64,000 nt of DNA from Hymenobacter edaphi (GTDB lineage: Bacteria; Bacteroidota; Bacteroidia; Cytophagales; Hymenobacteraceae), in the NCBI RefSeq assembly GCF_003258365.1, contig NZ_QHKM01000001.1, positions 1,550,001 to 1,614,000 of the forward strand, read 5' to 3'. The position numbers and the translations under genes were made by a program. Of this stretch, positions 32 to 4,596 are shown one piece after another. The first letter of the stretch is position 1, and each line of letters opens with the position of its first letter. The notes under the pieces were generated by a model that saw nothing but the letters and a program-made list of their open reading frames with translations, made no database searches and was not told the DNA's origin.

Positions 32-1189
32 TCAGCCACCCGCCAGTTCCTGCTGCGCCGCTTCGCGCTCCGTCGGGGTATTCACGTTGCGCAGCTCCTG
101 AGGCGCGGGGGCAGGCAGCAGCTCGATGTCGGAGTTGATGAGGACCTTGCGGGGGCAGGAGTAGCCCAGGGCCAGAAACTGCAGCAGCACCGGGTAGCTG
201 CGCGGCTCCCAGATGGTGATGAGCGGCTCGGGAAACGCGTTGTCGGGGCTCTGGAAGGCGGTGGCGACGCGGCCAGGGTGGCGGTGCTGCACCAGGTGCT
301 GCAGCGTAGCTTCGGTCAGGAACGGCAGGTCGCAGGCCACCACCAGCCAGGCGGCGTTGGGGTCGTGGCGGAAGGCGGTGAGCAGGCCGCTCATGGGCCC
401 CAGGTCGAGGAACTGGTCGGGCAGGGCGGTGAGGCCGGCGGGCACCTCGGGGGCCTGGTCGGGGCGGCAGCTGATGAGCACGTCCTGGCAGAGCGGGGCC
501 AGCAGGGCGGCGGCGTGCTCCTGCTGCTCCTGCTGGTGGTAGCGCAGGCGGCTTTTATCCTGCTGCATCCGCTGACTGCGGCCGCCGGTCAGCACCAGGC
601 CGCGCAGCGGGGGCTGCTGCTCGCGCAGCCACTGCTGCGTCCAGGCGGCAATAGCGGCGGTAGCGGCCAGGGGCAGCACGGGCACGGCTTTTTCGCCCAG
701 GTGCGCCTGCAGCACCGCGGGCAGCTCCGTCTGGCCTTCCGAGAGCAGCACCAGCCGCACGTCGGTCAGGCGGTCCAGCTTTTTGTCGAGCGGCTTGCGC
801 GGGTCGATGATGACGATTTGCTGCCGGGCCGGGAAGTGGTTGCCGTTGACGAGCACCAGGCTCTGCTCGTTCAGCCACTGGGGCTGGATGAACTTGTCCA
901 TCCCCCGGCGCACATCGAGGCGGCGGAAGTGAATTTTATCGGTCAGCTCGGCCGCGGCGCCGGCCTGCAGGATGGCATCGGCCCCGCCCGCGCCCCCGTC
1001 GGCCGCCTCGTCGCCGGCGGCGTGGTCGGCGTCGACGTAGGCCACGCGCAGTGCGGGCGTGAGCAGGGGCAGCAGGCGGGCCGCCAGGTCCTTGATGACG
1101 CCGCAGGGCGCGCCGAGGATGCCCAGCTCGTGGCGGCCGAATTCGCCGAGGGCGGGGCGGGCCAGGGCGGCGTGTTTCTGGTGAGTCAT
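32..1189 (-). CDS. mobA: Molybdenum cofactor guanylyltransferase-like protein with N-terminal MobB-like region
   Basis: The C-terminal half (about residues 197-385) is a MobA-type nucleotidyltransferase. It has the nucleotide-binding motif TGGRSQRMQQDK (201-212), a DLGPMSGL segment and VVACDLPF. MobA attaches GMP to molybdopterin in the cytoplasm. The first ~190 residues begin with a strand-loop-helix like a P-loop protein (GILGAPCGVIKDL) but without the GKT/S of a working Walker A, and continue with a YVDADH strand. This suggests a degenerate MobB-like domain fused to MobA. The ATG at 1189 is chosen because the upstream in-frame sequence is low-complexity and runs through an inverted repeat. 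It lies downstream of moaC on the same strand, and the cluster may continue past the left edge of the window. MobA function is well supported; the N-terminal role is inferred. Confidence 0.85.
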   Translation of the reverse strand: MTHQKHAALARPALGEFGRHELGILGAPCGVIKDLAARLLPLLTPALRVAYVDADHAAGDEAADGGAGGADAILQAGAAAELTDKIHFRRLDVRRGMDKFIQPQWLNEQSLVLVNGNHFPARQQIVIIDPRKPLDKKLDRLTDVRLVLLSEGQTELPAVLQAHLGEKAVPVLPLAATAAIAAWTQQWLREQQPPLRGLVLTGGRSQRMQQDKSRLRYHQQEQQEHAAALLAPLCQDVLISCRPDQAPEVPAGLTALPDQFLDLGPMSGLLTAFRHDPNAAWLVVACDLPFLTEATLQHLVQHRHPGRVATAFQSPDNAFPEPLITIWEPRSYPVLLQFLALGYSCPRKVLINSDIELLPAPAPQELRNVNTPTEREAAQQELAGG

Positions 1190-1203
1190 GGGGGGTCTTA
1201 AAT

Positions 1204-1352
1204 GTAGCGCGGAGCGGTGCCCGGCGCGGGCGGCGAAGACGCCAAAGGAAAATTGGGTTGGCTGCAGAACGGCGGGCATGGCGGATGCGGCCGGACGGCC
1301 CGGTTCCGCCTTGGCGCGTTCCGCGCCAGCACCGAGCACCGCTCCGCGCTAC
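1204..1352. repeat. TA-flanked inverted-repeat element between moaC and mobA
   Basis: Perfect 17-bp terminal inverted repeats occur at 1204-1220 (GTAGCGCGGAGCGGTGC) and 1336-1352, enclosing ~115 bp. Each end reads TA then GCGCGG, like the ends of the elements at 1893-2010 and 18547-18654. The right end overlaps the last bases of moaC, and the moaC stop codon TAG (1349-1351 on the minus strand) is part of the repeat. No transposase is encoded. Best read as a MITE-like element. Confidence 0.65.
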
Positions 1353-1843
1353 TCCACGTGCTGAAAGTCGCTTTTGCCGCCGGTTTTCGACAGCAGCCGC
1401 GTTTCCTGAATGACAATGTCGTGCGAGAGGGCCTTGCACATGTCATAGATGGTGAGGGCGGCCACGCTGGCGCCGGTCAGGGCTTCCATTTCCACCCCGG
1501 TTTTGCCCGTCACAGTGGCCGTGCACTCGATGACCACCGCGGCGGGCGGGGCCACGGTCACGGTCACCTGGCAGTCGTCGAGGCCCAGGGGGTGGCAGAG
1601 CGGGATGAGGTCGGCGGTTTTCTTGGCGGCCATGATGCCGGCCAGGATGGCCGTCTGGAACACCGGCCCCTTGCGGGTGGGCAGGTCGCCCTGCTGCACC
1701 AGGGCCAGGATATCGGCCCCGAGCACGACGCGGCTGCGGGCCCGGGCCACGCGGCGCGTCACGGCTTTCAGGCCGACGTCGACCATGGCCGGCTGCCCGG
1801 CGGCGTTCAGGTGGGTGAGTTTCTGGGAATCGGTATCAGGCAT
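1349..1843 (-). CDS. moaC: Cyclic pyranopterin monophosphate synthase
   Basis: MoaC converts the MoaA product (3',8-cH2GTP) to cyclic pyranopterin monophosphate in the first stage of molybdenum cofactor synthesis. The 164-residue length is normal for the family. Conserved segments are visible: VDVGLK near the N-terminus, KGPVFQTA, the LCHPL motif, TGKTGVEMEALTG, and IYDMCK followed by LLSKTGGKS. The ATG at 1843 is the natural start. It is divergent from moeA across a repeat element and upstream of the mobA-like gene on the same strand. Its stop codon lies inside an inverted-repeat element. Confidence 0.95.
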   Translation of the reverse strand: MPDTDSQKLTHLNAAGQPAMVDVGLKAVTRRVARARSRVVLGADILALVQQGDLPTRKGPVFQTAILAGIMAAKKTADLIPLCHPLGLDDCQVTVTVAPPAAVVIECTATVTGKTGVEMEALTGASVAALTIYDMCKALSHDIVIQETRLLSKTGGKSDFQHVE

Positions 1844-1892
1844 GAGTCAGGTCAGTAAAGGGGGCGTCCGCGCTGTTAGCGTCGCCAGCGTC

Positions 1893-2010
1893 GTAGCGCG
1901 AAGCCCTGCTTGGCGTATCCCGGACGGTTATCGTTGACGGGTAAACAACGATTATCGTTCAGGATACGCGAACTACAACCGAAGGTCGGCGCAGCCAAAG
2001 TTCGCGCTAC
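1893..2010. repeat. MITE-like nested inverted repeat, copy in moaC-moeA intergenic region
   Basis: The 118-bp element starts GTAGCGCGAA and ends TTCGCGCTAC. A second, inner inverted pair (GCGTATC / GATACGC) lies inside. It closely resembles the 108-bp element at 18547-18654, sharing the segments GATACGCGAACT, AGGTCG and AAAGTTCGCGCTAC. The TA at each end fits a TA target duplication. It fills most of the divergent intergenic region. Confidence 0.7.
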
Positions 2011-2069
2011 GATGCTTACGGCGCTAATAACGCCACGACTCCTACAACAGCAACGACGCCGCAGCCGGT

Positions 2070-2077
2070 TACCTTCG
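2070..2077 (+). promoter_or_regulatory. Probable -7 promoter element of moeA
   Basis: TACCTTCG is one base from the Bacteroidota -7 consensus TAnnTTTG and ends only 4 nt before the moeA ATG at 2082, so the transcript would be leaderless or nearly so. Confidence 0.45.
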
Positions 2078-2081
2078 CCGC

Positions 2082-3305
2082 ATGATTTCCGTCGAAGAAG
2101 CTACCCGCCTCGTCCGGGCCACCGCCGCGCCCCTGCCCGCCGAGCGCGTGCTGCTCACCGAAGCCCCCGGCCGCGTGCTGCGCGAAGCCGTGCACGCCGA
2201 CCGCCCCTTTCCGCCCTTCGACCGGGTCACGATGGACGGTATTGCCCTGCGCTTCGCCGCCGTGGCCACCGGGCAGCGGCAGTTTATAATCGAACAGACG
2301 CAGTTTGCCGGCCAGCCCCCTACCCCGCTCCGCGACGCTACGGCCGCCATCGAAATCATGACCGGGGCGGTGCTGCCGCCCGGCACCGATGCGGTGGTGC
2401 GCTACGAAGACCTGCTGATCGAGCAGCAGCCCGACGGCCGCCGCGTAGCCACGCTGCAGGTGCCGCCGCCCGCCGCGGGCCACAACGTGCACCGCCGGGG
2501 CTCCGACCACCCGGCGGAGGCGCTGCTGCTGCCCGCCGGCACCGTGCTCGGGCCGGCCGAAATTGCCGTGGCGGCCACCGTGGGCGCCACGACCTTAAGC
2601 GTGGCGCGGCGCCCCCGCGTGGCCGTGGTGAGCACCGGCGACGAGCTGGTGGACATCAGCGAGGTGCCCGCCGCGCACCAGATTCGCCGCTCCAATGCCT
2701 ACATGCTGCTGGCGGCCGTGCAGCAGGCCGGGGCCGCGGGCAGCCTCTTCCACTTCGACGACGACCCGGCCGCGCTGGCCGCCGGCCTGCCCCCGCTGAT
2801 GCGGGAGTACGACGTGGTGCTGCTCAGCGGGGGCGTGTCGATGGGCAAGGCCGACTACCTGCCCCAGGCCCTGCGCGGGGCCGGGGCCGAGCAGCTGTTT
2901 CACCAGGTGCAGCAGCGGCCGGGCAAGCCGTTCTGGTTTGGCCGTCACCCCGCCGGCGCGGTGGTTTTCGCCCTGCCCGGCAACCCCGTCTCGACGTTCA
3001 TCAACTACTACCGCTACGCCGCGCCCTGGCTGCGAGCCGTGCAGCTGCCCGCGCCGCAGTTTGCCGCGCCGGAGCCCGCCGTGCTGGCCGCCGACGTCAC
3101 GTTTAAGCCGAATCTGACGCACTTTCTGCTGGTGAGCCTGCGGCGCAGCCCCGACGGCCGCCTGCTGGCCCGCCCCGAGCGCGCCCACGGTTCCGGCGAC
3201 CTGGCCAGCCTGCTGCCCTCCGACGGATTTGTGGAGCTGCCCGCCGAACGGCAGGCGTTTCAAGCCGGCGAGGTGCTGCCGGTTTGGCGGTTCCGGGGGC
3301 AGTAG
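2082..3305 (+). CDS. moeA: Molybdopterin molybdotransferase
   Basis: MoeA inserts molybdate into adenylylated molybdopterin, the last general step of cofactor synthesis. The 407 residues match the family length. Visible motifs are FDRVTMDGIA (46-55), TGAVLPPGTDAVVRYED (94-110), NVHRRGSD, the MoeA signature STGDELVD (184-191), SGGVSMGKADYL (249-260) and PGNPVSTF (299-306). The ATG at 2082 directly precedes the conserved N-terminal helix. It is transcribed divergently from moaC and is followed by a palindromic array. Confidence 0.95.
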   Translation: MISVEEATRLVRATAAPLPAERVLLTEAPGRVLREAVHADRPFPPFDRVTMDGIALRFAAVATGQRQFIIEQTQFAGQPPTPLRDATAAIEIMTGAVLPPGTDAVVRYEDLLIEQQPDGRRVATLQVPPPAAGHNVHRRGSDHPAEALLLPAGTVLGPAEIAVAATVGATTLSVARRPRVAVVSTGDELVDISEVPAAHQIRRSNAYMLLAAVQQAGAAGSLFHFDDDPAALAAGLPPLMREYDVVLLSGGVSMGKADYLPQALRGAGAEQLFHQVQQRPGKPFWFGRHPAGAVVFALPGNPVSTFINYYRYAAPWLRAVQLPAPQFAAPEPAVLAADVTFKPNLTHFLLVSLRRSPDGRLLARPERAHGSGDLASLLPSDGFVELPAERQAFQAGEVLPVWRFRGQ

Positions 3306-3328: not shown

Positions 3329-3533
3329 GGCCGGTCTTTCCGAATTTCGGAAAGAGAGAAAAAACGTTTTGGCGGCCGTTCCAGATTCTGGAATGAGCGA
3401 AAAGTTGTTTCGGAGGTCATTCCGCAATGCGGAATGGGCAAAAAGTTGTTTCGGAGGCCGGTCCGGATTTCGGAATGACCAAAAAAACGTTTCGGCGGCC
3501 ATTCTGAAATGCAGAATGGCCGCCGAAACACTC
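3329..3533. repeat. Five-unit tandem array of palindromes with exact 41-bp period
   Basis: Five palindromes are centred at 3345, 3386, 3427, 3468 and 3509, each exactly 41 bp apart. They are TCTTTCCGAATTTCGGAAAGA, TTCCAGATTCTGGAA, ATTCCGCAATGCGGAAT, TCCGGATTTCGGA and ATTCTGAAATGCAGAAT (the first given as two 10-bp arms around 3345). The connecting stretch is conserved (A-rich, then GTTT, then CGGnGGCC). The last unit closes as a larger hairpin with 18-bp arms (3489-3506 and 3512-3529). 41 is not a multiple of three and no gene runs through it. Function unknown. Confidence 0.8.
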
Positions 3534-3705
3534 CAGCTGTTTGGGAAGTCAGCCTATTGGACGTTATCTATCATCCCTATCACGCTCGAACCACCTGTGC
3601 GGACGGGACAAGGTCCTTCGCGTTGCGGACGCCAGATAAAGGATAACAGATGCTTGCTTGGTGGTTCATTGTACCGGAGCGGAGCTTCTGCGGCAGTTCC
3701 GGCCT
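3534..3705. other. Intergenic remainder with no recognised feature
   Basis: Between the palindromic array and the end of the dioxygenase gene I see no open frame with coding character, no RNA gene and no clear terminator. Confidence 0.5.
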
Positions 3706-4596
3706 CTACCCAATGGCCACCGTGCGCATGCTCAGCCCGCCGAAGCTGACTTCCTCAAAGGCGTGGCTGATGGGCTCGTCCCGGTCGGCCAGGGCCAGGG
3801 AGTAGAGCAGCGGCCAGTAGTGGTCGGGGGTGGGCACGGCGAGCGGGCCGCTGGCGCCGGCCTGCTGCACGTCCAGCAGGGCCCGGAAGTCGCGCTGGTC
3901 GATGCGCGTTTTCACCCACTCGTCGAATTCCACGGCCCAGTCGTAGGCCGAGGCGTCGCCGGCCATCAGCTTCTGCATGCTCAGGCGCAGGTTGTGCACC
4001 ACGTTGCCCGAGCCGATGATGAGCACGCCGCGGCGGCGCAGCTCCTGCAGCTGGGCGGCCAGGGCGAAGTGCTGGGCGGGCGTTTTCTGCACGTCGAGGC
4101 TGAGCTGGAACACGGGCACGTCGGCGGCGGGAAAGAGGTGGTGCAGCACCGTCCAGGTGCCGTGGTCGAGGCCCCACTCGTCGGAGCCGTGCAGGTCGGG
4201 CACCAGGGCCAGGGCCTGCCGGGCGTACTCCGGCGCGCCGGGCGCGGGGTACTGCATGGCGAACAGCTCCTGCGGAAAGCCGCCGAAGTCGTGGATGGTT
4301 TCGGGCCGCTCGTTCAGCGTCACGAAGGAGCCGCGCGTGAGCCAGTGCGCCGACACCACCAGGATGGCGTTGGGCTTCTGGCGCTGGCGCACCTCCTCGC
4401 CCATTTTCCTCAGGGCGCGGGTGAATTTATTGTCTTCCAGCGCGTTCATCGGCGAGCCGTGCCCGATGAAGAGCACCGGCATTTTGGCGCTGGTCTGGAA
4501 GGCGGAGGATACGTTGTGCAGGTCTTGCAGATTCATGGCAGCAACGGAGGCGAAGGGCAGCAGGGCCAGGGTTTTGAGGAAGGCTAGGCGGTCCAT
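3706..4596 (-). CDS. ygiD: Extradiol ring-cleavage dioxygenase, 4,5-DOPA dioxygenase family
   Basis: This belongs to the LigB-like/DODA family of metal-dependent extradiol dioxygenases, represented by E. coli YgiD. Of the 296 residues, HGSPMNAL (46-53), SAHW (82-85), DFGGFPQELF (103-112), the DHGTWTVL segment and a GSGNVVHN motif carry the expected metal-ligand histidines and substrate-pocket residues. The first ~20 residues form a hydrophobic segment (FLKTLALLPFASVAA) preceded by basic residues, which looks like an export or anchor signal. The natural substrate in this organism is unknown. A consensus -7 box lies 24 nt upstream. It is divergent from a small exported protein gene. Confidence 0.88.
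   Translation of the reverse strand: MDRLAFLKTLALLPFASVAAMNLQDLHNVSSAFQTSAKMPVLFIGHGSPMNALEDNKFTRALRKMGEEVRQRQKPNAILVVSAHWLTRGSFVTLNERPETIHDFGGFPQELFAMQYPAPGAPEYARQALALVPDLHGSDEWGLDHGTWTVLHHLFPAADVPVFQLSLDVQKTPAQHFALAAQLQELRRRGVLIIGSGNVVHNLRLSMQKLMAGDASAYDWAVEFDEWVKTRIDQRDFRALLDVQQAGASGPLAVPTPDHYWPLLYSLALADRDEPISHAFEEVSFGGLSMRTVAIG

Follow-up and report, generated by a model that had tools for sequence, protein, structure and literature searches.

Extragenic palindromes are common, and their geometry and sequence are usually inherited together and hence inseparable. In other bacteria the arrays known as REP/BIME are bound by gyrase, IHF and DNA polymerase I. Operator-like and centromere-like site arrays are another relevant class, with regularly spaced dyad sites and degenerate half-sites. 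REP/BIME elements are described as short extragenic palindromes that are sometimes tandem, that often lie between convergent genes and that are binding sites for DNA-handling proteins (PMC1525189, PMC3733652).

Here we describe a palindromic array in Hymenobacter edaphi (genome G000). The whole 64,000-nt stretch of this genome that was analysed is called the window, and all array coordinates are window positions. The array and its relatives are closest to REP/BIME elements, yet they fail the tag, copy-number and transposase tests. Like REPs they are palindromic and extragenic, and they have a 41-bp unit with a 15-17-bp palindrome, in agreement with the REP criterion of 20-40 bp. Unlike REPs, they carry the edge tag GTAG in 0 of 56 units and CGTC in 4 of 56 (within 8 nt). 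They are not high-copy, with 16 units in three arrays in H. edaphi, and the units of an array point one way except at the hairpin, with a step of 41 bp. No transposase is linked to the arrays, and a relative carries another palindrome at the same loci.

Operator-like and centromere-like arrays share with the window-type arrays an even spacing of dyads with degenerate half-sites. However, no regulator or partition gene was recognised beside our arrays, and there are several per genome, at gene ends. CRISPR loci also have palindromic repeats at regular spacing, but here the repeat core is only 15 bp, the palindromes vary, and the spacers are alike within the window array (mean identity 0.62) rather than unique. 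No cas genes were seen by eye among the ORFs flanking arrays. A full-text literature search for Hymenobacter with palindromic and tandem repeats returned no paper, other searches brought up papers on REPs, on template switching and on unrelated subjects, and a description of the arrays was not among what these searches yielded.

The array between moeA and a LigB-family gene

The window array consists of five 15-nt dyads spaced exactly 41 bp from centre to centre. It occupies the spacer that separates the 3' ends of moeA and of a LigB-family dioxygenase gene, with 32 bp from the end of moeA to palindrome 1. The features are listed below; G003 is a related genome, apparently H. jeollabukensis.

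2082-3305, plus strand: moeA, molybdopterin biosynthesis (Pfam MoeA_N, MoCF_biosynth, MoeA_C)
3338-3352: palindrome 1, TTCCGAATTTCGGAA, centre 3345, on the moeA side; a longer dyad with 10-bp arms
3353-3378, plus strand: linker between palindromes 1 and 2, A-rich, then GTTTTGGCGGCC
3379-3393: palindrome 2, TTCCAGATTCTGGAA, centre 3386; paired change relative to the G003 orthologue, A/T for G/C
3394-3419, 3435-3460 and 3476-3501: remaining linkers of the array
3420-3434: palindrome 3, TTCCGCAATGCGGAA, centre 3427; arms of 9 bp
3461-3475: palindrome 4, GTCCGGATTTCGGAA, centre 3468; imperfect
3502-3516: palindrome 5, TTCTGAAATGCAGAA, centre 3509; paired change relative to the G003 orthologue, T/A for C/G
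3489-3529, minus strand: end unit, with the linker in both orientations flanking palindrome 5; a hairpin with 18-bp arms
3706-4596, minus strand: LigB-family aromatic ring-opening dioxygenase gene (Pfam LigB), convergent with moeA

The first-pass annotation of this DNA had reported five palindromes at an exact 41-bp period, and a dyad comb scan confirms this. The five-unit comb scores 7.5 at period 41 and position 3345, a value never reached in 60 mononucleotide shuffles of the whole 64-kb window with all periods of 18-70 allowed (mean 5.75, maximum 6.00). In a four-unit comb scan of the window this array was the sole place reported. Tandem Repeats Finder gave a period of 41, 4.1 copies, 73% matches and 0% indels. 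Unit 4 alone is weak, scoring 5.5, and an adjacent centre scores 6.0.

The last unit had been described as a hairpin with 18-bp arms, and it is one: the arms at 3489-3506 and 3512-3529 are 100% complementary. On the minus strand this hairpin is followed by a G and then by T7 (3487-3481). Two other parts of that description held less well. The linkers, called conserved, are only moderately alike, with a mean pairwise identity of 0.62 that takes in the end unit, whose downstream side is an inverted arm. The innermost letters of the palindrome (positions 6 and 10 of 15) do belong to the dyad in units 1-3, but not across the family, where they pair in 12 of 56 units against 16.8 expected.

Related arrays in the same genome and in relatives

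A BLAST search with the window array found two further arrays in H. edaphi, one of six units on contig C28 (the ppx locus) and one of five on C21 (the cdaA locus), both with other linkers. What the arrays of different loci have in common is the core TTCCG-n5-CGGAA and the 41-bp step; the linkers differ. All 11 exact RTTCCGn5CGGAAY sites in the genome lie inside its three arrays. Sites with at most one mismatch number 45 in the genome, against 39 for a reversed control, so that scattered single sites, and with them an ordinary regulon, are absent.

Orthologous arrays are present in G003 at all three loci, although at the cdaA locus there are two units against the five of H. edaphi. G001, which is close to H. 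edaphi, has no array at the LigB and cdaA loci. At its ppx locus (L339, downstream of a ppx-family gene) we saw by eye an apparent remnant of the last unit, which suggests that the arrays are old and losable. A search of 1,592,803 bases of G001, about a quarter, gave six matches against four in one shuffle, and none of the five listed was array-like. The idea of an array in every Hymenobacter was rejected, given that none lies in the searched G001 bases and that combs occur at few of the loci examined.

The first-pass annotation had called for a search of related genomes for tandem palindromes at 41 bp, and these were indeed found, in few Hymenobacteraceae. A palindrome pair at 41 bp with at most two mismatches occurs in 5 of 204 family genomes (G000, G003, G016, G101 and G073), of which G073 is a weak member with a single match at two mismatches. 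The reversed control of the pair pattern matched in 3 of the 204, once each. A class-level scan at one mismatch gave 2 of 395 genomes, both known already. This rarity, together with the apparent remnant in G001, implies that any function of the arrays is dispensable.

Comb scans were also made of particular loci. Among 51 loci (28 of 28 LigB loci, 22 of 30 cdaA loci and the C33 locus of genome G006) five have a 41-bp comb, and four others score 6.12-6.25 at periods other than 41, just over the null maximum of 6.00 (20 shuffles). The C33 array itself was missed by the scan because of its 42-bp step. In a scan of 30 cdaA loci the 41-bp comb turned up once (G016); a second locus reached 7.0 on three units spaced 27 bp apart, the null maximum being 6.67. 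Two of 30 ppx loci have the 41-bp comb, those of G000 and G003.

Searches of PLSDB and INPHARED with the array found no plasmid or phage match, and cargo of plasmids or phages was rejected as an explanation. In IMG/VR four stretches have palindrome pairs, in layouts differing from the array, and a search there with a second palindrome type (CTAAGCGCTTAG, see below) found none.

As at the moeA/LigB locus, convergent genes flank the arrays of L021 (OmpA / DUF4252), L028 (methyltransferase-like / methylpurine glycosylase), L032 (DEAD helicase / DUF5686) and, in Prevotellaceae, L119 (TonB_C / chorismate synthase). They also flank the array at the cdaA locus of H. edaphi, where Pfam gives no match for the plus-strand neighbour. 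Genes are codirectional at the ppx locus (where the neighbour is, by eye, an ldh-like gene), in H. gummosus and at the C33 locus of G006. The orientation class of L027 and of Chitinophagaceae L116 is uncertain, as one neighbour each lacks an identification.

The 41-bp step

The set of 56 units analysed below was taken in the 41-bp register, and spacing was therefore judged from other scans. A step scan of 84,980 species genomes, with periods of 26-56 allowed, returned 101 stretches; 95 were profiled, the other six having minus-strand matches only. Eight arrays have at least three steps of 41 bp. Of their 36 neighbour spacings, 35 measure 41 bp and the remaining one 39, a count that leaves out three longer gaps to outlying matches (287, 82 and 205). 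One of the eight comes from H. gummosus, two from H. jeollabukensis, one from a Prevotellaceae MAG and four from contigs of one Chitinophagaceae MAG, which may represent a few loci in several strain variants.

At 10.5 bp per turn, 41 bp corresponds to 3.9 turns. TTCCG palindromes in other clades step differently, for example at 21 bp in Prevotella/Bacteroides and in Burkholderiales-type genomes at 33/45 bp, which means that a 41-bp step does not simply come with a TTCCG palindrome. A tandem array keeps its period by descent, which makes the constancy of 41 within a lineage weaker evidence than it appears.

Some of these other clusters deserve a short description. Those with a 21-bp step are often of four and lie in Prevotella/Bacteroides-type genomes, at L067, L093, L109, L111, L123, L124, L131, L133, L135, L138, L139, L152 and L157; one Bacteroides MAG has five of these loci. 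Burkholderiales-type genomes (L068, L077, L113, L132, L141 and L150) carry four TTCCG-type palindromes each, spaced 33, 33 and 44-45 bp in one order or the other, within unlike sequences (three of the six were read). These are possibly the end of a mobile element.

Clusters with steps of 21, 23, 33/45 and 38/46 bp look like separate families and were left out of the statistics. Also left out were L070/L120 (Paludibacter, two units), L119 (four units), the four Chitinophagaceae MAG contigs, L088 and L151. L070/L120, L119 and the MAG contigs have palindrome and step in common with the array and may be homologous to it.

A different palindrome at two common loci

We surveyed the regions 3' of the LigB-family gene and of cdaA in 38 genomes. 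G006, a member of the same genus, has arrays at both loci that are built from CTAAGCGCTTAG, a palindrome unrelated to the window type. Its proteins at the LigB and cdaA loci are 92% and 96% identical. Among autocorrelation periods of 15-119, that of 41 bp ranks first at both. A third array, C33, lies between aldo/keto reductase and alpha/beta hydrolase genes, at a locus with no nucleotide match to the three array loci of H. edaphi. Over the three arrays the step is 41 in 10 of 11 cases and 42 in one, a count that kept only units having a neighbour at 41.

Pairs of CTAAGCGCTTAG at 41 bp with at most three mismatches occur in 1 of 204 family genomes. Arrays of the two types show weak similarity, with a best score of 35 against a null maximum of 28 (60 shuffles); of the 14 array pairs, two others are just over their null maximum, one more is above its own, and the rest fall within it. 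In G006 the putative recognition sequence differs and the geometry is kept, in keeping with a protein that altered its specificity along with its sites. Two relatives in one genus thus share loci and spacing but not the palindrome, making geometry and sequence experimentally separable.

Constraint on the palindromes

Substitutions were compared over 12 orthologous unit pairs from one species pair, G000 and G003. Differences are found at 8 of 120 arm positions, 14 of 60 loop positions, 9 of 24 outer R/Y positions and 48 of 288 linker positions. Arms change less than loops (p = 0.003) and less than all linkers (p = 0.007). Three of the 12 linkers run out of the array, at end units; with these excluded (31/216) the difference between arms and linkers is marginal (p = 0.049). 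Six of the eight arm changes are in the moeA/LigB array, where, taken alone, arms (6/40) and clean linkers (17/72) do not differ significantly (p = 0.34). The same is true of the ppx array alone (1/60 against 10/120, p = 0.10).

A wider set comprises 56 units from 12 Hymenobacteraceae arrays, with degenerate units and the weak G073 kept and a G003 unit at 39 bp excluded. Across the five stem pairs we counted 29 one-sided and 4 both-sided changes (3 of them Watson-Crick), with 1.9 both-sided changes expected. The outer R/Y halves are independent of each other (A-T 20, A-C 12, G-T 12, G-C 7; Fisher p = 1.0).

It had been proposed from the sequence that paired changes keep the symmetry and that compensatory substitutions should be looked for. 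Units 2 and 5 do differ in this way from G003, but among the 56 units one-sided changes dominate, and the general claim is not upheld. Since the halves vary independently, the counts argue against an RNA stem as the selected unit, and an RNA stem with compensation was rejected for the palindromes. With G-T and A-C equally frequent, nothing points to a single transcribed strand. Two half-sites in a dimer-binding site would be expected to look independent in this way.

Long hairpins and transcription ends

Nine of the 12 Hymenobacteraceae arrays have a single unit in which pairing extends over 11-12 of the 12 positions flanking the palindrome, while the other units of those nine pair 2-7. This long-hairpin unit is an end unit in eight arrays and the second of six in one G016 array. 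The arrays that have no long hairpin are the shortened C21 array of G003, G101_b and G073. Loops are found in both orientations: CATTT 8 and AAATG 7, CATTC 3 and GAATG 5, GATTC 6 and GAATC 3, GATTT 4 and AAATC 2.

In yeast, template switching between inverted repeats yields arm homogenisation and spacer inversion (PMC8604942). For one long hairpin per array together with flipped loops, replication template switching at the palindromes is the best explanation, and it could likewise have produced the paired changes in window units 2 and 5. The concerted copying that the first-pass annotation had suggested is partly borne out, in that the long perfect arms in one unit of most arrays and the flipped loops fit template switching.

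The fold of the window array is far more stable than that of shuffles on both strands (z -8.2 and -8.5), as would be that of any row of palindromes. By position, the hairpin end faces a gene 3' end at five loci, moeA/LigB, cdaA (G000), ppx, L021 and L028, but H. gummosus has it turned towards the start of the next gene. Within the window array a hairpin is directly followed by a T run at one place only, the end unit on the minus strand; at internal units there are, by eye, about 13-15 nt between hairpin and T run. Two end hairpins of G006 are followed by only T3-T4, and at L021 and L032 a separate terminator-like hairpin lies beside the array (both by eye).

The window array resembles tandem intrinsic terminators in having a stable hairpin and a T run on one strand, on the gene-end side. 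The arrays differ from such terminators in that internal units have no T directly behind the hairpin, compensatory change is nearly absent, and direction is lost in H. gummosus. To judge from its sequence, the end unit with its T7 is terminator-like on the minus strand and may end transcription of the LigB-family gene; termination is unlikely to be the general reason for the arrays.

Discussion

Related arrays retain the 41-bp step although their linkers, and in G006 the palindrome too, are different. The best reading of this is a phased protein-binding array, one of the options raised in the first-pass annotation. We tentatively regard the arrays as dimer-binding sites set in register, REP/BIME-like, old, extragenic and present in few of the Hymenobacteraceae searched, a reading we hold to be plausible if short of probable. 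A putative dimeric DNA-binding protein, which we infer solely from the independence of the half-sites and their spacing, would occupy the sites as duplex DNA with one half-site per subunit. A step of about four turns would set the bound dimers on roughly the same face, and dimers so aligned could assemble at gene ends into a regular filament or into a complex that is bent or bridged. The proteins bound to REP/BIME arrays, gyrase, IHF and DNA polymerase I, are an analogy for such a complex. Replication template switching at the palindromes would account for the single long hairpin of an array and for loops in flipped orientation.

The arrays may instead have no host function, each being an occasional tandem repeat in a spacer that tolerates insertions, tidied by slippage and template switching and removed by deletion. 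We regard this as possible, on the doubtful side. It would explain why 9 of 12 arrays have one long perfect hairpin and why loops are flipped, both of which are signatures of template switching (PMC8604942), and it agrees with the patchy presence (5 of 204 family genomes), the apparent G001 remnant, the two units against five at the cdaA locus of G003 and an arm-versus-linker constraint that is marginal once cleaned (p = 0.049). It does not lead one to expect that one palindrome recurs across loci and genera with unlike linkers, nor arms that change less than loops (8/120 against 14/60), or a different palindrome at the same step at two common loci in G006. Quite unlikely, in our judgement, is an element acting at the RNA level, in which tandem 3'-end hairpins end transcription or shield mRNA ends and the gene-proximal long hairpin is the main terminator. 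The very stable fold on both strands suits it, as do the minus-strand hairpin with T7, which lies towards the LigB-family gene, and the orientation of the hairpin end at five loci. It is weakened by the near absence of compensatory change, with 29 one-sided against 3 paired Watson-Crick changes, by the equal G-T and A-C mismatches, by the H. gummosus hairpin that points to the start of the next gene, by the short T3-T4 runs in G006, by the separate terminator-like hairpins that adjoin the L021 and L032 arrays and by the 13-15 nt that part internal hairpins from their T runs. An Rfam scan of the window likewise found no family at gathering score, and the structured-RNA option of the first-pass annotation is thus disfavoured.

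We consider it highly improbable that the arrays are mobile elements of the REP type, with a REP-associated tyrosine transposase (RAYT) moving them, even though the palindromes are extragenic and at gene ends and Y1 transposase genes were matched in 8 of 12 genomes tried, H. edaphi included. The units lack the GTAG tag (0 of 56, with CGTC in 4), H. edaphi has 16 units in three arrays and not many scattered copies, G101 carries arrays but gave no Y1 match, and the phage and plasmid records of INPHARED and PLSDB gave no match. A RAYT/REP origin was rejected, as the one Y1 gene found in H. edaphi bears its own 78-bp inverted repeats.

A stronger form of the phased protein-binding reading is that the array is locked to its period: a dimeric protein would need sites exactly 41 bp apart at few gene-end loci, with protein and palindrome changing together and loci and spacing fixed. 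This is speculative and rather unlikely. Centromere/satellite co-evolution in eukaryotes is comparable to such a co-changing protein and palindrome, which would here be on a bacterial chromosome. Should a protein indeed read the spacing, the arrays would constitute an ordered protein-DNA assembly of a new type, located at gene ends, and an example from bacteria of sites and protein evolving together.

Additional observations

The Y1-type (REP-associated-like) transposase gene of H. edaphi is at positions 1174-1725 of L009, on contig C41. It is flanked by 78-bp inverted repeats, 97% complementary, which are its own rather than the array palindrome. The gene resembles the RAYT relatives flanked by TIRs that are mentioned in PMC3733652. 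A BLAST match of the array at C41 falls within the coding region of this gene and was dismissed as chance (E = 3.75).

Molybdenum-cofactor genes are grouped at the start of the window (32-3305); moeA is identified by Pfam, and its neighbours are, we assume, MoaC- and MobA-like. Between the array and the LigB-family gene, a stretch at 3588-3667 has inverted ends, GAACCACC/GGTGGTTC, seen by eye. It has a single partial second match in the genome (C42, 81%, no inverted ends), and at its place the spacer of G003 is about 145 bp shorter.
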